From positions 1-39,307 of the forward strand of contig JAITPF010000008.1 in NCBI GenBank assembly GCA_031289585.1: a stretch of DNA of 39,307 nt, read 5' to 3'. The notes under the pieces are model-generated. The model worked only from the letters and a program-made list of their open reading frames with translations, was not told where the DNA came from and searched no databases. The DNA is from Endomicrobium sp. (GTDB lineage Bacteria; Elusimicrobiota; Endomicrobiia; Endomicrobiales; Endomicrobiaceae). The position numbers and the translations under genes were made by a program. This document shows positions 3,123 to 39,307 of the stretch, piece after piece (within the stretch, counting starts at the first letter, position 1; each line of letters opens with the position of its first letter).

Positions 3123-4610
3123 TTAAACTGTTTTAAAAAACTTGTTTATAGTTACATTTATTCTTCTTACCACTTCATTTTTCCCCATAACTTCCATCAT
3201 ATGGAACAAACTAGGACCTTGAGTTCGTCCCGAGATTGCAACTCTTATCGGATGAAATACTTGTCCGGTTTTAATATTTTTCTCTGCAGCTAAAGCTCTG
3301 GCATATTGTTCTAATGCTGCAGATGAGAAATCTTGTTGATTTGCAAGTCTTACAACACTTTCAGTTAAAACAAATTTTGCACTATCTTTTGATTTCTCAG
3401 AAAGCAATGTTTTCTGTACAGCTTCTTCTTTATATTCTATATCTTTTGCAAAAAAGAAATCCACAAGGGATGGAATATCTTTTAACAATTTTATTTTATC
3501 ATGTTCTAAAACTATTGCTTTTTTTAGTAGATCAATATCCCAGTTTTCTATTAATTTCTCATTGTTTGTATACTTTAGCCAATCAATAAACAATTCATAT
3601 ACCTGCTCTGGTGCTTTAGAACGAATTTTTTCACCGTTAAGCCACAACAATTTTACTGGATCGAAAATGGATGGACTTGTACCACATCTTTCTATAGAAA
3701 ATTTCTGTTCTAACTCTTCTATTGTAAAAATTTGTTGACTATCTTCTGTGGACCACCCTAATAGTGCAAGATAATTTATTAATGCCTCTTGTAAATATCC
3801 TTCTTTTCTGTACTCTAAAACAGAAGTATGTCCGTGCCTTTTTGAAAGTCTTGCACCATCATGACCCAAAATCATAGCCATGTGTGCAAATTCAGGCATT
3901 TTCCAACCTAAAGCATTATAAATATGCATTTGACGTGGTGTATTTGAAATATGATCATCGCCTCTTAAAACATGAGTTATTTCCATAAGATAATCATCAA
4001 CAACACACGCAAAATTATATGTAGGTACACCACTTGCTTTCATTATTACAAAATCATCAAGCAAAGAATTATCAAATTCTACTCTTCTTCTTATAAGATC
4101 ATTTAAAACAGTAATTCCTAAATCGGGCATTTTAAATCTTATAACAGCTTTTCTCCCATCTGTTTCTTTTTGTTTTTTTTGTTCAGATGTAAGGTGACTG
4201 CATCTACCATCATATTTGGGAGGAAGTTTGTTGGCTTGAGCCTCTTTCCTCATCTCATCAACCTCTTCCGGAGTACAATAACAATGATATGCAAGCCTTT
4301 TTATAACAAGTTCATCTGCATATTTTTGATATATTCCTTGTTCTTTACGTTTCATTTGATAGTATGGAGCATATTTTAGACATTCGTTGCCAGGACCTTC
4401 GCCCCACTTAAGTTCAAGCCATTTCATAGCATCCAAAATAACTTTTACAGATTCTTCAGTTGAACGAGCTTCATCAGTATCTTCAATTCTTAAAATAAAT
4501 TCCCCGCCTTTGTTTCTTGCAAAAAGCCAGTTAAATAGAGCCGTACGTACCCCTCCTATGTGCAAATCGCCCGTTGGGGACGGCGCAAATCTTACTCTTA
4601 TGTTACTCAT
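3123..4610 (-). CDS. gltX: glutamyl-tRNA synthetase
   Basis: A 495-residue class I aminoacyl-tRNA synthetase that charges tRNA-Glu, normal length for bacterial GluRS. It opens with '[20 protein letters not shown]', containing the HIGH-type motif (HIGG), then 'FILRIEDTD', the family signature. The KMSKS-type loop is 'KLSKR'-like (ARLSKRHG, about residue 258). A Cys-rich segment (CYC ... C-S-H, about 109-137) lies in the position of the zinc-binding insertion seen in many GluRS. The C-terminal anticodon-binding helices end with '[18 protein letters not shown]', typical of the family. The start is an ATG with a GGAAA-type ribosome site. The next gene upstream is hisG, 45 bp away. Confidence 0.97.
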
Positions 4611-4655
4611 TTGTGTTTCCTTAAAAAATTGTTCTCATGCGTTTGTCGTGACTAA

Positions 4656-5528
4656 TTAATATATTATTTTATTCAACGGATACTCAATAATTCCTGTTGC
4701 GCCAGCCCTTTTCAATGCAGGGATTATTTTTTTTACAGTTTTTTCTTCTAAAATACCTTCCAAAGCACACCAATTTTTATCACTTAATTGTGATATCGTA
4801 GGTTTTTTAAGTGATGGAAGAACAGTCGTAACTTTTTCCAAAGATTCAAGCGGAACATTCATCTTGAGACCTACCATTCCTTCCGCTGCAAGTGCTCCTT
4901 TTAAAAGCATTGCCATACTTTCAATTTTTTCTTTTTTCCAGTTATCATTCAATGTTTCGATATTTGTAATAAATCTTGTAGTTGAAATAAGCATTTCATC
5001 AACTATTCTCAATTTGTTTGCTCTTAAAGATGACCCTGTTTCTGTAAGTTCAACTATTGCATCAACAAGTTTGCCAGCTTTAGCTTCTGTTGCACCCCAC
5101 GAAAACTCAATATCTGCTTTAACTTTATTTTTTGCAAAATATTTTTTTGTATAATTTACAAGCTCAGTTGCAACACGCTTTCCTTGTAAATCTTTTATCG
5201 ACTTAATTTTTGAATCCTCTGGTACGGCTAAAACCCATCTTACAGGTCTAAATCCTGATTTTGCATAATTCAATTCGCATATTTCTTTTACTTTCGCACC
5301 ACTTTCACAAATCCAGTCATAACCAGTAAGTCCAGCATCAAAAAAACCATCTTGAACGTACCTTGCCATTTCCTGTGAACGCACTAACATTATTTCCAAT
5401 TCATCATCATCTGATATTGGATAATATGATCTTGACGATACATTTATTCTTATACCTGCTTTTTTAAACAAATCAATTGTTGAATCTTGAAGACTTCCTT
5501 TTGGAAATCCCAATTTTAACTTTTTCAT
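4656..5528 (-). CDS. hisG: ATP phosphoribosyltransferase, long form
   Basis: Catalyses the first step of histidine synthesis (ATP + PRPP to phosphoribosyl-ATP). At 290 residues it is the long HisG form, with two PRT/periplasmic-binding-fold catalytic domains and a C-terminal ACT-like histidine-sensing domain (about 215-290, ending [13 protein letters not shown]). The PRPP-site signature '[20 protein letters not shown]' (about 156-175) is intact, as is the N-terminal '[11 protein letters not shown]'. The long form does not need HisZ. No other his genes are in the window, so this is a detached hisG. The start ATG follows GAGG-type SD at ideal spacing. It may be transcribed with gltX. Confidence 0.95.
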
Positions 5529-5570
5529 AACATCTCCTCTTTGTTACTATTTCAAATATTTGATTGTAAA

Positions 5571-5650
5571 GCCCAAAGAACTGTGGCAATCTTTATTTTT
5601 TTACAATGTGGATTGTTCACTGGTTTTACCGGTTCGCAATGACAACAAAA
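5571..5650 (-). repeat. GTCATTGCGA/GTGGCAATCT dispersed repeat, copy 2
   Basis: Read on the minus strand: GTCATTGCGAA near 5642-5632, a middle with ACCGGTAAAACC, and GATTGCCACAG-TTCTTTGGGC at the other end. The TTCTTTGGGC end block is shared with the copy at 37461-37496. It lies between hisG and the CvpA-like gene. Confidence 0.6.
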
Positions 5651-33688: not shown

Positions 33689-34579
33689 ATGAAAAATACA
33701 CCTATAGAAAAGATAAAAAATTTTTGTTTTATTTTACCGGCATTATTGTTATTTTTGGTATTTAGTTTATATCCCATTTTGAGAATTTTTGAACTTAGTG
33801 TTTTCCAATGGAATGGTATAGGTAAAAATATGGTGTTTGTAGGTCTTGTACAGTATAAGCATATCTTATTTAACAACCCAAATTTTTGGAACTCAATGTT
33901 AAATGCCGGATATATAACTTTTCTTGCTCTTATTATTCAAAATACTCTTGCATTATTTTTAGCGATACTTGTAAACAGAAATATAAAAGGCAAAAACATT
34001 TACAAAACTATATTCTTTTTGCCTTCAGTGCTATCTGGGATTGTGGTAGGTTTAATCTGGAAATTTGTTTTTGATGGCAATTTCGGCATATTAAATCATT
34101 TTCTTGCAAGCATAGGTTTTACTAACTTTCAAGATTTTTCATGGTTTTCCAAAACTAAAACTGTTCTTTTTGCTGTAACTGTCGCGCATATTTGGAAAGG
34201 GTTTGGGTATGGGTTTATAATTTTTCTTGCAGGTTTGCAGACAATTCCTGTAGAACTTTATGAAGAGGCAGAAGTTGACGGTGCAGATGAATGGCAAAAG
34301 TTTAAATACATTACTTTCCCTTTGTTAATTCCTATTTTTACAATAGCAGTAGTTCTTACAATTTTAGGTTCGATGCAAATATTTGACTTAATTTATTCAG
34401 TGACAAGAGATGTATCAGTTGAACATACGTATGTTCCTATAACGCAAATATATGAATATATGAACAATGGTGAATTCGGTTATTCTATGGCGATGACTGT
34501 TATATTTGCTACATTATTACTTATGGTTTCATTTATACAGATTCTAGCTTCTAAAAAATTAAATTATAACAATAAATAG
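33689..34579 (+). CDS. sugar ABC transporter permease, MalF/UgpA type
   Basis: A 296-residue membrane protein with six spans, the first at about 10-33, of the carbohydrate-uptake-1 (CUT1) permease family. 'SLYPILRIFELSVFQWNGIG' near the N-terminus and the cytoplasmic coupling loop 'ELYEEAEVDGADEWQKFKYITFPLL' (cited as EEAEVDGADEWQKF) are diagnostic. It forms the channel with the next gene. The expected solute-binding protein and the MsmX/UgpC-type ATPase are not in the window, so the ATPase may be shared or the operon broken. No clear ribosome site; a TATAGT lies 16 bp upstream of the ATG. Confidence 0.9.
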   Translation: MKNTPIEKIKNFCFILPALLLFLVFSLYPILRIFELSVFQWNGIGKNMVFVGLVQYKHILFNNPNFWNSMLNAGYITFLALIIQNTLALFLAILVNRNIKGKNIYKTIFFLPSVLSGIVVGLIWKFVFDGNFGILNHFLASIGFTNFQDFSWFSKTKTVLFAVTVAHIWKGFGYGFIIFLAGLQTIPVELYEEAEVDGADEWQKFKYITFPLLIPIFTIAVVLTILGSMQIFDLIYSVTRDVSVEHTYVPITQIYEYMNNGEFGYSMAMTVIFATLLLMVSFIQILASKKLNYNNK

Positions 34580-34587
34580 GAAAACCA

Positions 34588-35418
34588 ATGTGTGTTTTTA
34601 GACTTAAAAAATTGATATTAGCTTGTATGACTCACTTTATTCTTATAGCAATATCACTTATCTGTATTTTCCCTATTTTTTGGATGTTATTTTCTTCTTT
34701 AAAAACTCATCATGATGTTTTTTTTAAAATGACTCTTCTACCGCAAACTTGGAATTGGTCGAATTATATTACGGCCTTTATTAAAGCTGATTTTGGACAA
34801 TATTTTTTAAATAGCGTTATTTATACTGTTGTTGGTGTATTTTTTATTATTTTAATTTCGTCTCTTGCGGCATATAGTTTTTCAAGACTTAACTTTTGGG
34901 GAAAATCCTTTTTCTTTTACCTTCTTATAGCGACATTTTTAATACCTATACCAGGGATTTTTGTTCCTTTATATTTGTTATTAAAAAATTTCTCTCTTCT
35001 TGATACAAGAACAGGTTTACTCTTATGTTACATAAGCAATGGTCTTGCTTGTGCAATTTTTCTATTGAAATGTTTTTTTGACAAAATACCTAAAGAAATT
35101 GAAGAAGCTGCTATTATCGATGGTTGTTCGCGTTTCGGCATATATTGGAGAATATTACTGCCTCTTGCCAAACCTGTTTTAGCAACACTTGTAATTATGA
35201 ATTCTCTTACAATATGGAATGAATTTCTTCTAGCTCTTGTTGTTTTTCAAGATAAGGCCAAAATGCCTATACAAAGAGGGTTAATGGTATTTCAAGGTGA
35301 TTATCCACTTCTGATGACAGGTCTCACAATAGCAACAATTCCTATCGTTCTAATCTATCTTTTGATGCAAAAATACATAATGAAAGGCATAATAGCTGGT
35401 GCTTTAAAAAGAGTATGA
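34588..35418 (+). CDS. sugar ABC transporter permease, MalG/UgpE type
   Basis: A 276-residue partner permease with six spans. It carries 'CIFPIFWMLFSSLKT' (first periplasmic entry), 'AAYSFSRLNFWGKSFFF' and the coupling loop 'EIEEAAIIDGCSRFGIYWRILLPL' (EEAAIIDGCSRF). It ends 'GIIAGALKRV', close to the usual 'GLTAGAVKG'. It starts 8 nt after the previous stop with AGGA in between. Substrate is a sugar or glycerol-phosphate-type compound by family; no further evidence. Confidence 0.9.
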   Translation: MCVFRLKKLILACMTHFILIAISLICIFPIFWMLFSSLKTHHDVFFKMTLLPQTWNWSNYITAFIKADFGQYFLNSVIYTVVGVFFIILISSLAAYSFSRLNFWGKSFFFYLLIATFLIPIPGIFVPLYLLLKNFSLLDTRTGLLLCYISNGLACAIFLLKCFFDKIPKEIEEAAIIDGCSRFGIYWRILLPLAKPVLATLVIMNSLTIWNEFLLALVVFQDKAKMPIQRGLMVFQGDYPLLMTGLTIATIPIVLIYLLMQKYIMKGIIAGALKRV

Positions 35419-35502: not shown

Positions 35503-35953
35503 TTAATCAAATTTCTTTTCTTTATACTTAACACCATTACTTAAATCACTTCTGTTAAGTAAAAACTTAATAGCAACTCCTGTATTTGTCCCTTTAAGAC
35601 GATAATTACTATAAGAAGAAAAATCACTATAAACAGATAATGCTTCACTTGTAATTACGCAATCAGCCCCAAGCAACGCCGCTACTTCTATTAACTCTTT
35701 TGTGCTTTTGCTGTCAATAAAAGCAATATCTCTATATGGCTTTACTGGAAGATGAGTTATACATAACTCAATATCTTCTGGGTTAGTAGACTTATACTTT
35801 TTTACTGTAAAAGGTTTATAGTAAATTGTTTCAGCATTAATCTCAATGGCAATATAGCTATCTTCTTTTTTCTTGTTTCCATTTTTTTATATTCTTTCCA
35901 CAAGCAGATAACACAAAAACCAAACACACAAAAAATACAAGTAATTTTTTCAA
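35503..35953 (-). pseudogene. lipoprotein gene frameshifted in a poly-A tract
   Basis: The TTG start at 35953 is 2 nt after the HD-gene stop. The first frame gives a lipoprotein signal peptide ending VLSAC, then GKNIKKWKQ and a stop. After an A7 run (35882-35888), the +1 frame is open for about 125 codons to a TAA at 35503, encoding a soluble protein with 'LPVKPYRDIAFIDSKSTKEL' and 'ALLGADCVITSEAL'. With six A instead of seven, the two frames join as one 149-residue or so lipoprotein. The downstream frame shows normal codon use and no stops, so decay is recent, or the tract allows slippage. The family is not certain; the middle resembles lipoproteins with an 'xxGADaVi' motif. Confidence 0.75.
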
Positions 35954-35955
35954 TT

Positions 35956-37149
35956 TTACACTTTTAAATTTGTATGAAAATAATCAAACAGCTGTTTAAA
36001 ATCAAAATTATTCTTTTTAATGCCGGTATATTTGTTATAAAGGGCTTGTTTCGATTTGATTAAAGTTAAAGATTTTATGCCATATTCTAATGCCATTGAA
36101 GCTTCAATATAGGCACATAATTTGTCGCACATTTCAATCAAACTTCCATCAACAGCATTATATTTATTATCATTAAAATCTTCTGCATTGTCCACTCTTT
36201 TTATACTGCCATTTTCAATAATTTTATCTGAAAATTCATCTTCTATAAAATATTGCATTTCTGCATGCCAACTTGACGGAATTAAAGGAAGTATTTTCTC
36301 ATCAACTTGTTTCTTTTCGTAATGCTTTATTATATCTTCAAGTCCAAATATTGATGCTTTTACTGGTTTAATAATATCTTTTGTTAAGATCTCAGGAAGA
36401 TCATGGAATAATGAAGAATAAAAATTATTATACTTTCTTCTCTCTGAAGCATTCATTTCCATTGATAATATATATGTAAAGATTGCAACCGTAAGCATGT
36501 GACCAAGAACAGTCGTTTTTGGTATTCTAAAAGCCTGTGCCCACCTTTGCTGAAACCTTAACTGCCCGCATAAGTCCAAAAACCCGTAATATTTTTTATT
36601 TATCATTAATTTCCTTATACCCAGCAAATCGTCAAAAGCTGCAATACCTTCTTCTATTTCTTGTTTTGTCTTTTCTATTCCATATATCATTAAATTCCAC
36701 GGATAAATTATACCAAACTCCCACCTTGTAGAAAGGCAATGCGCCGCGCTTAAAATCCTTTTCTCATGCATTGCATAATCTGGTTCTAAAAGATATTTTG
36801 AACATCTCTCTCTAAAGCCGCCTTTTAAAACAGATAAGTCATTATTTAAGTTTTCCATTACCCATCTGTTTAATTCTTTTGCTTTTTTTGACATTATTTC
36901 ATGGAAGATTTCCGGTTTCAAATCTGTAAGCATTATTCTCTGAAAAAATTCAAAAATTCCACCTTCAATAAGTTTTATCCAGTCAACATCTTTACCATCT
37001 TCTTCTTCAAACTTTGCAACTATATAAGCAATTATCATTTTATGAGCTTGTTTATCAAGCTCACAAAAATCAAGGGGACGTACATGATCGTTCCATCTTA
37101 AAATATTCGCGGCTGAAAAAATTCTTAAAATCAAATCTTTTGTTATCAT
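35956..37149 (-). CDS. HD-domain phosphohydrolase (YfbR-like)
   Basis: A 397-residue protein with an HD domain in its middle/C-terminal half. 'RIPKTTVLGHMLTVAIFTYIL' contains the first metal His, and 'YSSLFHDLPEILTKDIIKPVK' contains the HD pair and the D-x-x-x-P-V-K motif that mark YfbR-like 5'-nucleotidases. The N-terminal about 200 residues are helical and extend beyond a simple YfbR (about 200 residues). Likely a nucleotide or nucleoside-phosphate hydrolase; substrate unproven. AGGAT precedes the ATG. The TTG start of the lipoprotein gene follows its stop by 2 nt. Confidence 0.8.
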   Translation of the reverse strand: MITKDLILRIFSAANILRWNDHVRPLDFCELDKQAHKMIIAYIVAKFEEEDGKDVDWIKLIEGGIFEFFQRIMLTDLKPEIFHEIMSKKAKELNRWVMENLNNDLSVLKGGFRERCSKYLLEPDYAMHEKRILSAAHCLSTRWEFGIIYPWNLMIYGIEKTKQEIEEGIAAFDDLLGIRKLMINKKYYGFLDLCGQLRFQQRWAQAFRIPKTTVLGHMLTVAIFTYILSMEMNASERRKYNNFYSSLFHDLPEILTKDIIKPVKASIFGLEDIIKHYEKKQVDEKILPLIPSSWHAEMQYFIEDEFSDKIIENGSIKRVDNAEDFNDNKYNAVDGSLIEMCDKLCAYIEASMALEYGIKSLTLIKSKQALYNKYTGIKKNNFDFKQLFDYFHTNLKV

Positions 37150-37448
37150 CTATCCTAATCCTTATGTTAGACCTCTTGTGTAACCAGTATATAAAACGAA
37201 TAACTCTAAAGCCGTCTTTTTCTAAAAATACTTCTCCAACCTCACTCTCTTGCGTTACAAGTCCACTTGATGAAAAGGATTGAAGTCGTGTTACTGTTCA
37301 TCTCTTTTAGTGTCGTATATATATCATAATCCCATGATTGTTCTATTTTATCCAGTTACGTAAGAGGTTTATTTAATATTTCATACTACAACTTTAAGTA
37401 CACTCTCAAAAATATTGCCTTTCGTATTTTTCATGGCAATTTGTTTTT
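37150..37448. other. intergenic region without supported genes
   Basis: About 300 bp upstream of the HD gene. Minus-strand frames of about 35-75 codons without start codons are present ('VGEVFLEKDGFRVIRF' is one), possibly an old pseudogene, but I recognise no family and would not annotate it. The upstream half is AT-rich with no clear promoter. Confidence 0.4.
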
Positions 37449-37652
37449 TTAGTCTCGTCTGTCAATTACGAAGCCCAAAGAACTGTAGCAGTCTTTTCCA
37501 ACAGTGTCCTTCCTGCACCCAATTAAGACACTTGAGGATAAATTCCTACGAGCATCTATTCTTTTACCGTATCCATATTCCTGCCCACGATAAAAGACAT
37601 TCGAGGGTAAACAAACTCCCGCTGAATATCCGCATTGATTTAGTTGTGTCAT
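37449..37652 (-). pseudogene. C-terminal gene fragment, possibly formylglycine-generating-enzyme-like
   Basis: A 67-codon frame with 'LPSNVFYRGQEYGYGKRID' and an end 'CRKDTVGKDCYSSLGFVIDR'. The Cys-Arg...SSLGF-x-(hydrophobic)-x-R order is weakly reminiscent of the end of FGE-sulfatase domain proteins (usually CR.A.R ... GFR). No N-terminal domain lies upstream. The first part recurs at 31514-31570, and its 3' end is built from a dispersed-repeat copy (37461-37496). Function not claimed. Confidence 0.3.
37461..37496 (+). repeat. GTCATTGCGA/GTGGCAATCT dispersed repeat, copy 4
   Basis: GTCAATTACGAA-GCCCAAAGAAC-TGTAGCAGTCTTT: the same GCCCAAAGAACTGT(G/A)GCA(A/G)TCTTT block as copy 2 at 5571-5595, joined to a degenerate GTCATTGCGAA. 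Confidence 0.65.
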
Positions 37653-37684
37653 TTCTTTTGCTGTGTCATTTCTTTTGCTGTGTC
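37646..37684 (+). repeat. 17-bp tandem repeat
   Basis: GTGTCATTTCTTTTGCT occurs twice in direct succession (37646-37662, 37663-37679), followed by GTGTCATT of a third copy that runs into the hairpin repeat at 37685. Confidence 0.85.
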
Positions 37685-37704
37685 ATTCCCGCGAAAGCGG
37701 GAAT
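37685..37704. repeat. ATTCCC...GGGAAT hairpin, dRS3-like
   Basis: ATTCCCGC-GAAA-GCGGGAAT: an 8-bp perfect stem with a GAAA tetraloop, and an exact fit to the 20-bp ATTCCC-N8-GGGAAT pattern known from Neisseria dRS3 repeats and found in other bacteria within GTCATTCCCGCG-type intergenic repeats. Confidence 0.75.
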
Positions 37705-37714
37705 CCATCTTGTT

Positions 37715-37750
37715 CGTCATTGCGAGCCTACGAAGTAGGCGTGGCAATCT
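37715..37750 (+). repeat. GTCATTGCGA/GTGGCAATCT dispersed repeat, copy 5
   Basis: CGTCATTGCGAG, a perfect inverted GCCTAC-GAA-GTAGGC (37726-37740), then GTGGCAATCT. This is the cleanest member of the family in the window. Confidence 0.85.
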
Positions 37751-37767
37751 TTCCTTTTAGTCTTATC

Positions 37768-37821
37768 CGTCATTGCGAACTACCAAAAGCAGCGAGAGTT
37801 GCGAAGCAATCGTGGCAATCT
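37768..37821 (+). repeat. GTCATTGCGA/GTGGCAATCT dispersed repeat, copy 6
   Basis: CGTCATTGCGAAC, a longer middle (AAAGCAGCGAGAGTTGCGAA and GCAATC), then GTGGCAATCT. A partial seventh copy, GTCATTGCCAAGTACGAA, begins at 37840 and ends next to alkD. Confidence 0.8.
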
Positions 37822-37870
37822 GTTCTTTTGGTATTGTCTGTCATTGCCAAGTACGAAAACAACTTTTGCT

Positions 37871-38831: not shown

Positions 38832-39307
38832 CTATTTAGTCTCATTTAACTCTTTTTCAAGCTTTTCAAAACACTGTTGAGCATCGGCATATCCTTGATC
38901 CGCAGCTTTTGTATACCATTTAAGCGCCTCTTGATAATCCTGTTTTACTCCTTCTCCATTACGGTACATAAAACCTAAATTATATTGAGATTTGGCATAT
39001 CCTTGATCCGCTGATTTCTTCCAGTACTTCAATGCCTCTTGATAATCCTGTTTTACTCCTTCTCCATTACGGTACATAACACCTAAATTACATTGAGCAT
39101 CGGCATATCCTTGATCCGCAGCTTTTGTATACCATTTAAGCGCTTCTTGATAGTCCTGTTTTACTCCTTCTCCATTATGGTACATAAGACCTAAATTATA
39201 TTGAGCATCGGCACTTCCTTGCTCCACAGCTCTTTTATATAACTTAAATGCTTTTTTATAATTCTGATTTGCTCTCAAACCTAAACAATGCAATATTGCC
39301 ATATTTT
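38832..39307 (-). CDS. Sel1-repeat protein (partial at the window edge)
   Basis: At least 156 residues of Sel1-like (TPR-type) repeats of 36 residues: three full copies of 'A..YNLG.MY.NGEGVKQDYQEALK..' and a leading half-repeat. Sel1 proteins act as protein-protein scaffolds, often exported. The ATG at 39302 falls inside what looks like a repeat ('MAILHCLGLRANQNYKKAF'), so the true start probably lies beyond the window and no signal peptide can be judged. The repeats are almost identical at DNA level with a period of 108 bp, implying recent tandem duplication. It ends 'EKLEKELNETK'. Confidence 0.85.
   Translation of the reverse strand, partial: NMAILHCLGLRANQNYKKAFKLYKRAVEQGSADAQYNLGLMYHNGEGVKQDYQEALKWYTKAADQGYADAQCNLGVMYRNGEGVKQDYQEALKYWKKSADQGYAKSQYNLGFMYRNGEGVKQDYQEALKWYTKAADQGYADAQQCFEKLEKELNETK
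38933..39180 (-). repeat. 108-bp tandem coding repeats
   Basis: The block beginning GATAATCCTG-TTTTACTCCT recurs at 38933, 39041 and (one substitution) 39149, exactly 108 bp apart, with the flanking sequence also conserved. The period equals three Sel1 motif-lengths of 12 codons, that is one 36-residue repeat. Confidence 0.9.

Follow-up and report, generated by a model that had tools for sequence, protein, structure and literature searches.

Homopolymer frameshifts have been reported in eight genes of B. vafer, and some insect symbionts keep such frameshifts without further damage to the gene; earlier work cited in the same report put full-length transcripts at 30% (all from the available part of PMC3017870). 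In Endomicrobium, 10 to 37 pseudogenes per genome were annotated in five drafts (PMC8809381), and the available main text of that report mentions neither frameshifts nor lipoproteins. The locus described here lies in a stretch of 39,307 nucleotides, which was analysed as a whole and is referred to as the window. The window is contig C42 of a draft Endomicrobium genome of 1.28 Mb (49 contigs, 86% complete), and the organism is probably a termite-gut symbiont. In the assembly as printed, one lipoprotein gene of the window is split by a frame break. This gene is likely to be a recently inactivated small exported lipoprotein gene, i.e., a frameshift pseudogene in a patchy, decaying family, and the kind of event is ordinary.

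On the minus strand, a frame opened by TTG (35953-35951) runs for 31 codons (35861-35953), encodes LKKLLVFFVCLVFVLSACGKNIKKWKQEKRR, in which residue 1 was taken as Met provided that TTG is the start, and is terminated by TAG at 35860-35858. Lipoprotein signal peptides have a basic start, a hydrophobic stretch, and a lipobox with a terminal Cys. The predicted signal peptide in this frame, LKKLLVFFVCLVFVLSAC, with the lipobox LSAC, has the features of a signal peptidase II type lipoprotein. A second minus-strand frame, offset by one base, contains 127 stop-free codons (35886-35506) and ends with a stop codon at 35505-35503; this frame with its stop (35503-35886, minus strand) represents the globular part of the lipoprotein, as indicated by its coding character and its homologues. 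The whole gene (35503-35953) measures 451 nt, which is one base over 150 codons and agrees with the joined protein of about 149 residues given in the preliminary description. The coordinates and the A7 tract (35882-35888) given there were correct. The view taken there, of one lipoprotein gene in an AT-rich genome that is split by a one-base offset in or close to a homopolymer, was also borne out. The downstream frame was stop-free as stated, with a length of 127 codons instead of the 125 first given.

Since the first frame ends at 35860-35858 and the second has a stop at 35889-35887, the changeover is confined to the 32 nt between these stops (35858-35889, minus strand). This interval includes the A7 tract (35882-35888, T on the plus strand) and an A6 tract (35866-35871), both on the minus strand. 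Because the A6 tract is an alternative indel site inside the same interval, the A7 tract, to which the break had been assigned, is the likely but unproven site of the indel, and the relatives were too divergent to help in placing it exactly. Among the 30 larger genes of the window, an A run of at least 7 occurred in 4.0% of 32-nt stretches, an A or T run of at least 7 in 5.3%, and one of at least 6 in 14.5%. Chance would thus only occasionally place a frame break next to an A7, and its position here is compatible with replication slippage.

The downstream 127 codons were identified as a gene by stop-free simulations, codon usage, and homologues within the genus. Among 20,000 sequences simulated with the local dinucleotide content, none had a single frame without stops for 127 codons; when all six frames of 591 bp were considered, a run of that length was present in 25 of 20,000. 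The codon-usage score of the downstream frame (0.18 per codon) was above those of all 144 wrong-frame segments (maximum -0.012), and 24 of 73 genuine gene segments scored below it. No further defects were seen in the 127 codons. This undamaged length, with its gene-like codon use, counts against a pseudogene, as it is also expected of a rescued gene or of an assembly error.

For a frameshift pseudogene, the simplest origin would be a single-base indel by replication slippage in A7 or the nearby A6, after which the signal peptide and the globular part would no longer share a reading frame. Ribosomes starting at TTG would yield only the 31-residue peptide, and the downstream frame offers them no usual start until codon 71; an internal start was rejected, as this frame has no ATG, GTG, or TTG up to that codon. 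Ribosomal frameshifting was set aside as unsupported, since a -1 shift enters a frame that soon stops and the frame needed is +1. The classical +1 frameshift site of release factor 2 has a stop codon at the site, whereas no stop codon was found at the A run. We infer that the cell itself carries the break, that replication slippage was its cause, and that the full-length protein is not produced.

When the bare downstream frame was used as the query, 59 genomes gave matches in six at E≤0.01, one of them being the genome of the window. The best other match had an E value of 3.6e-8, and the frame belongs to a small-lipoprotein family within the genus. In one of these six genomes (G017), the matching stretch is part of a long open frame, taken here to be pheT. 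The closest relatives are only 37-41% identical, and no close orthologue was found for a selection test. When named genomes were scanned with the family alignment, two loci were obtained, one in a Ca. Endomicrobiellum devescovinae MAG and one in an Endomicrobium sp. MAG. Columns common to the eight aligned family members include an LGAD motif. The family resembles Pfam DUF4156 (PF13698) through weak matches in six of these eight members (best E 0.0018); unlike them, the window frame itself had no Pfam match at E≤1, DUF4156 included. One member matched Prenyltransf with a better value (E 0.00071), and the weak family names matched by one member each, including Prenyltransf, were set aside as chance. 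Given the unmatched window frame and the better but chance-like Prenyltransf match, the link with DUF4156 serves as a lead only. Three of the eight members matched NCBIfam LA_1841 (best E 3.8e-5). A model predicted from eight sequences (pLDDT 65) was uninformative, with a best Foldseek E value of 2.5 and no match at E≤0.001, and the best match in a sequence search of the PDB (E 0.025) was taken as chance. No second family copy was found in the window's genome at E≤1. Outside the genus, match rows without an internal stop were seen in three genomes (G036, G069, and G085).

The family is patchy, with a locus at E≤1e-5 in 6 of 41 genus genomes (G000, which is the window's, G001, G008, G010, G025, and G031). 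The count left out G002 and G029 (E between 1e-5 and 1e-3), G017, and the three genomes from outside the genus. The 16 loci in these genomes were judged by eye: six read intact (G025:C16, G025:C7, the second of G010:C69, the first of G010:C40, the first copy of G031:C1, and G008:C1, which is otherwise intact but lacks the lipobox Cys), two are cut by contig ends (the first of G010:C42 and of G010:C69), and eight are broken or doubtful. Among these eight, the window locus has one shift, as has G031 copy 2, where the alignment does not place it in a homopolymer. In G031 copy 3, the ATG already opens the wrong frame, but translation from a GTG shortly before it would give a T9-bearing signal peptide in the right frame; judging from the sequence, this copy may be functional via that GTG. 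The second locus of G010:C42 has two shifts, the first of which is bypassed if an upstream GTG is used. G008:C4 has no usual start in its own frame and an ATG in another, the second locus of G010:C40 is a partial tandem copy, and G001:C1 and G001:C4 have two shifts each. The three tandem copies of G031 (one intact and two frame-broken) lie at 4077-5640 on the minus strand of G031:C1:16000-26000 (L047). The two loci of G001 (L055, 590-1030; L056, 4570-4990) represent a more advanced stage of decay than that of the window gene.

The frame of the window gene is broken, in the assembly as printed, in a family of which 6 of 16 loci read intact, as is typical of a pseudogene. The breaks of the eight broken or doubtful loci sit at differing places, some of them outside homopolymers (G031 copy 2, G008:C4, and the second shift of G010:C42), which indicates that loss is common in this family. 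As roughly every second related gene found in sister species also seems to be broken, ordinary gene decay is the most likely explanation. The window locus would then be a clean and apparently recent case of how gene loss begins in a symbiont genome undergoing reduction, and the family could be traced from intact via once-broken to multiply broken copies in sister species.

The positions of the breaks also bear on phase variation, in which the tract length would change reversibly in the population and turn the lipoprotein on and off. The lipoprotein has several homopolymers at its 5' end, and the first break falls within about the first 35 codons in six of the seven loci in which it could be read. 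If breaks were even and a quarter of the gene were in the 5' part, the chance of six in seven would be 0.0013, a value that is too small because the loci were found via the globular part, so that breaks there were under-sampled. Furthermore, G031 copy 3 and the second locus of G010:C42 have a GTG shortly before the ATG, from which the signal peptide would be translated in a different frame. If such GTG starts are real, however, the 5' count drops to four of six. Clustering of breaks at the 5' end is possible. Tracts of 7 are ordinary in the window genome, the break sites differ and are in part outside homopolymers, and several loci have two defects. Phase variation is thus highly improbable for the window gene. 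It is just as hard to credit that the whole family is toggled by small indels that keep arising within the signal peptide or shortly after it, the broken copies being a silent reservoir of lipoproteins instead of dead genes; if this were true, G031 copy 3, with its second start in another frame and its T9-bearing signal peptide, would be a switch caught in mid-change.

Directly upstream of the lipoprotein gene is an intact HD-domain gene (Pfam HD_3; 35956-37149, minus strand). Its stop lies 2 nt before TTG, and the HD and lipoprotein genes may therefore be translated as a unit. A conserved unit of the two genes was rejected, as a match to the lipoprotein region was found behind the HD gene in none of 11 relatives' loci (reach about 430 to 1500 bases, with less than 1000 bases in four loci). 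G025 has a family member on the opposite strand, at a distance of about 2 kb from the HD gene. Two ABC-transporter permease genes (33689-35418, plus strand) face the lipoprotein gene and are its neighbours, not a part of it. Two spacers and one open frame of the window were also noted. A 720-base spacer (37150-37870) has a higher G+C content (0.384) and contains a tandem repeat of 17 nt (37645-37687) together with a hairpin that looks perfect (37685-37704). This spacer is absent from the matching stretch of the relatives, and may be a dispersed repeat element. A 1.3-kb spacer (1451-2787) without a clear gene, in which a short minus-strand frame (1706-1948) starts like a signal peptide, possibly consists of gene remains. 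An open frame of about 157 codons (38832-39302, minus strand) contains 3.4 copies of a 108-nt tandem repeat, presumably of the Sel1/TPR type, reaches the end of the window, and may continue past it.

The main rival of the pseudogene reading is an assembly or consensus error, with the gene intact in the cell and the draft carrying one base too many or too few. The genome is a fragmented and incomplete draft, assemblies often contain spurious pseudogenes, to an extent that varies with the coverage and the assembler (as stated in the available part of PMC11017572), and the remainder of the downstream frame is undamaged. On the other hand, the other window genes that were scanned look open, even though 67 A or T tracts of at least 7 occur within 30 open genes of the window. 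Together with matches above the cut-off to a Pfam family in 24 of 27 scanned genes, these tracts indicate that the window is not generally frame-broken. In addition, the same family is broken in independent genomes of the genus whose HD gene is open. In the HD gene, which served as a control, no premature stop was found in the 13 copies that were read (the window's, those of 11 relatives, L013-L023, and that of G025). Near-full-length HD copies numbered 27 in 39 genomes, and 14 of the 27 rows had one stop, which was at the natural end in all five of these that were read. HD-related debris exists too, as additional partial HD matches were listed for G020 (two in C38, and one in C63 that has two stops) and for G059 (two fragments in C146, of which one contains a stop), and this weakens the control. 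The two partial matches at G020:C38:4471-5676 are in opposite orientation, have an equal score, lie near a complete copy, and represent either an inverted duplication or an assembly fold-back. If the window genome was produced in the same way as the termite-gut MAGs of PMC11257099 (Illumina and MEGAHIT according to the available part of that report), errors in homopolymers of length 7 would be rare. Overall, an error in the draft is unlikely; since the drafts are fragmented, it could still affect the lipoprotein locus alone.

The undamaged downstream frame likewise agrees with rescue by slippage, in which the break would be fixed in the genome and RNA polymerase or the ribosome would slip in the A-rich stretch with sufficient frequency to give useful full-length lipoprotein; such rescue has been proposed for genes of Buchnera and Blochmannia. 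In Buchnera, homopolymers are the site of more than half of the single-base deletions made during transcription, although transcription deletions overall are rarely tied to them; no frame-restoring transcription errors were detected, according to the available part of that report (PMC5574713). The A7 tract is short, however, compared with the tracts of 9 or more discussed in the available part of PMC3017870. Reporters for E. coli RNA polymerase gave no detectable activity below seven T or eight A, and insertions at A7 amounted to 0.39% by sequencing (available part of PMC6260861). Moreover, the joined frame needs one base skipped (or two gained), whereas insertions on 7-11 A are at least twice as efficient as deletions (PMC6260861, same part). 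A homopolymer of at least 6 just behind the signal peptide was absent in all eight homologues, so that no slip site is conserved there; A6-A7 runs at the gene start were found in seven and T6-T9 runs inside the signal peptide in five of the eight. None of the eight homologues shares the break site of the window gene, and the related broken loci differ in place, which is a weak test as no true orthologue is known. The preliminary description had suggested that the gene may still be active through slippage or may be phase-variable, and had regarded additional stops in the downstream frame of relatives as a sign to the contrary. Further downstream breaks were found in both loci of G001. With the short A7 tract, the rarer deletions, the varied indels, and no conserved slip site in eight of eight homologues, the suggestion was not supported, and slippage rescue is very unlikely for the window gene. 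If RNA showed a restored frame, the known range of slippage rescue would grow by another phylum and would include a tract so far considered too short for it.

Decay of a frameshifted lipoprotein gene thus remains the preferred reading, and it can be compared with two described systems. Like the pseudogenes annotated in Endomicrobium drafts, the window gene belongs to the same group of flagellate symbionts, in which gene loss is ongoing (available part of PMC8809381). It also resembles the Blochmannia and Buchnera cases, in which an AT-rich symbiont gene is interrupted once, in an A/T tract, and is open elsewhere; in the window gene, the single break is likely to lie in such a tract. The genes described there, however, are mostly conserved, with longer tracts and some breaks shared between lineages (available part of PMC3017870), whereas the window gene encodes a patchy accessory lipoprotein, with an A7 and an A6 in the interval of the break, which is shared by no orthologue.
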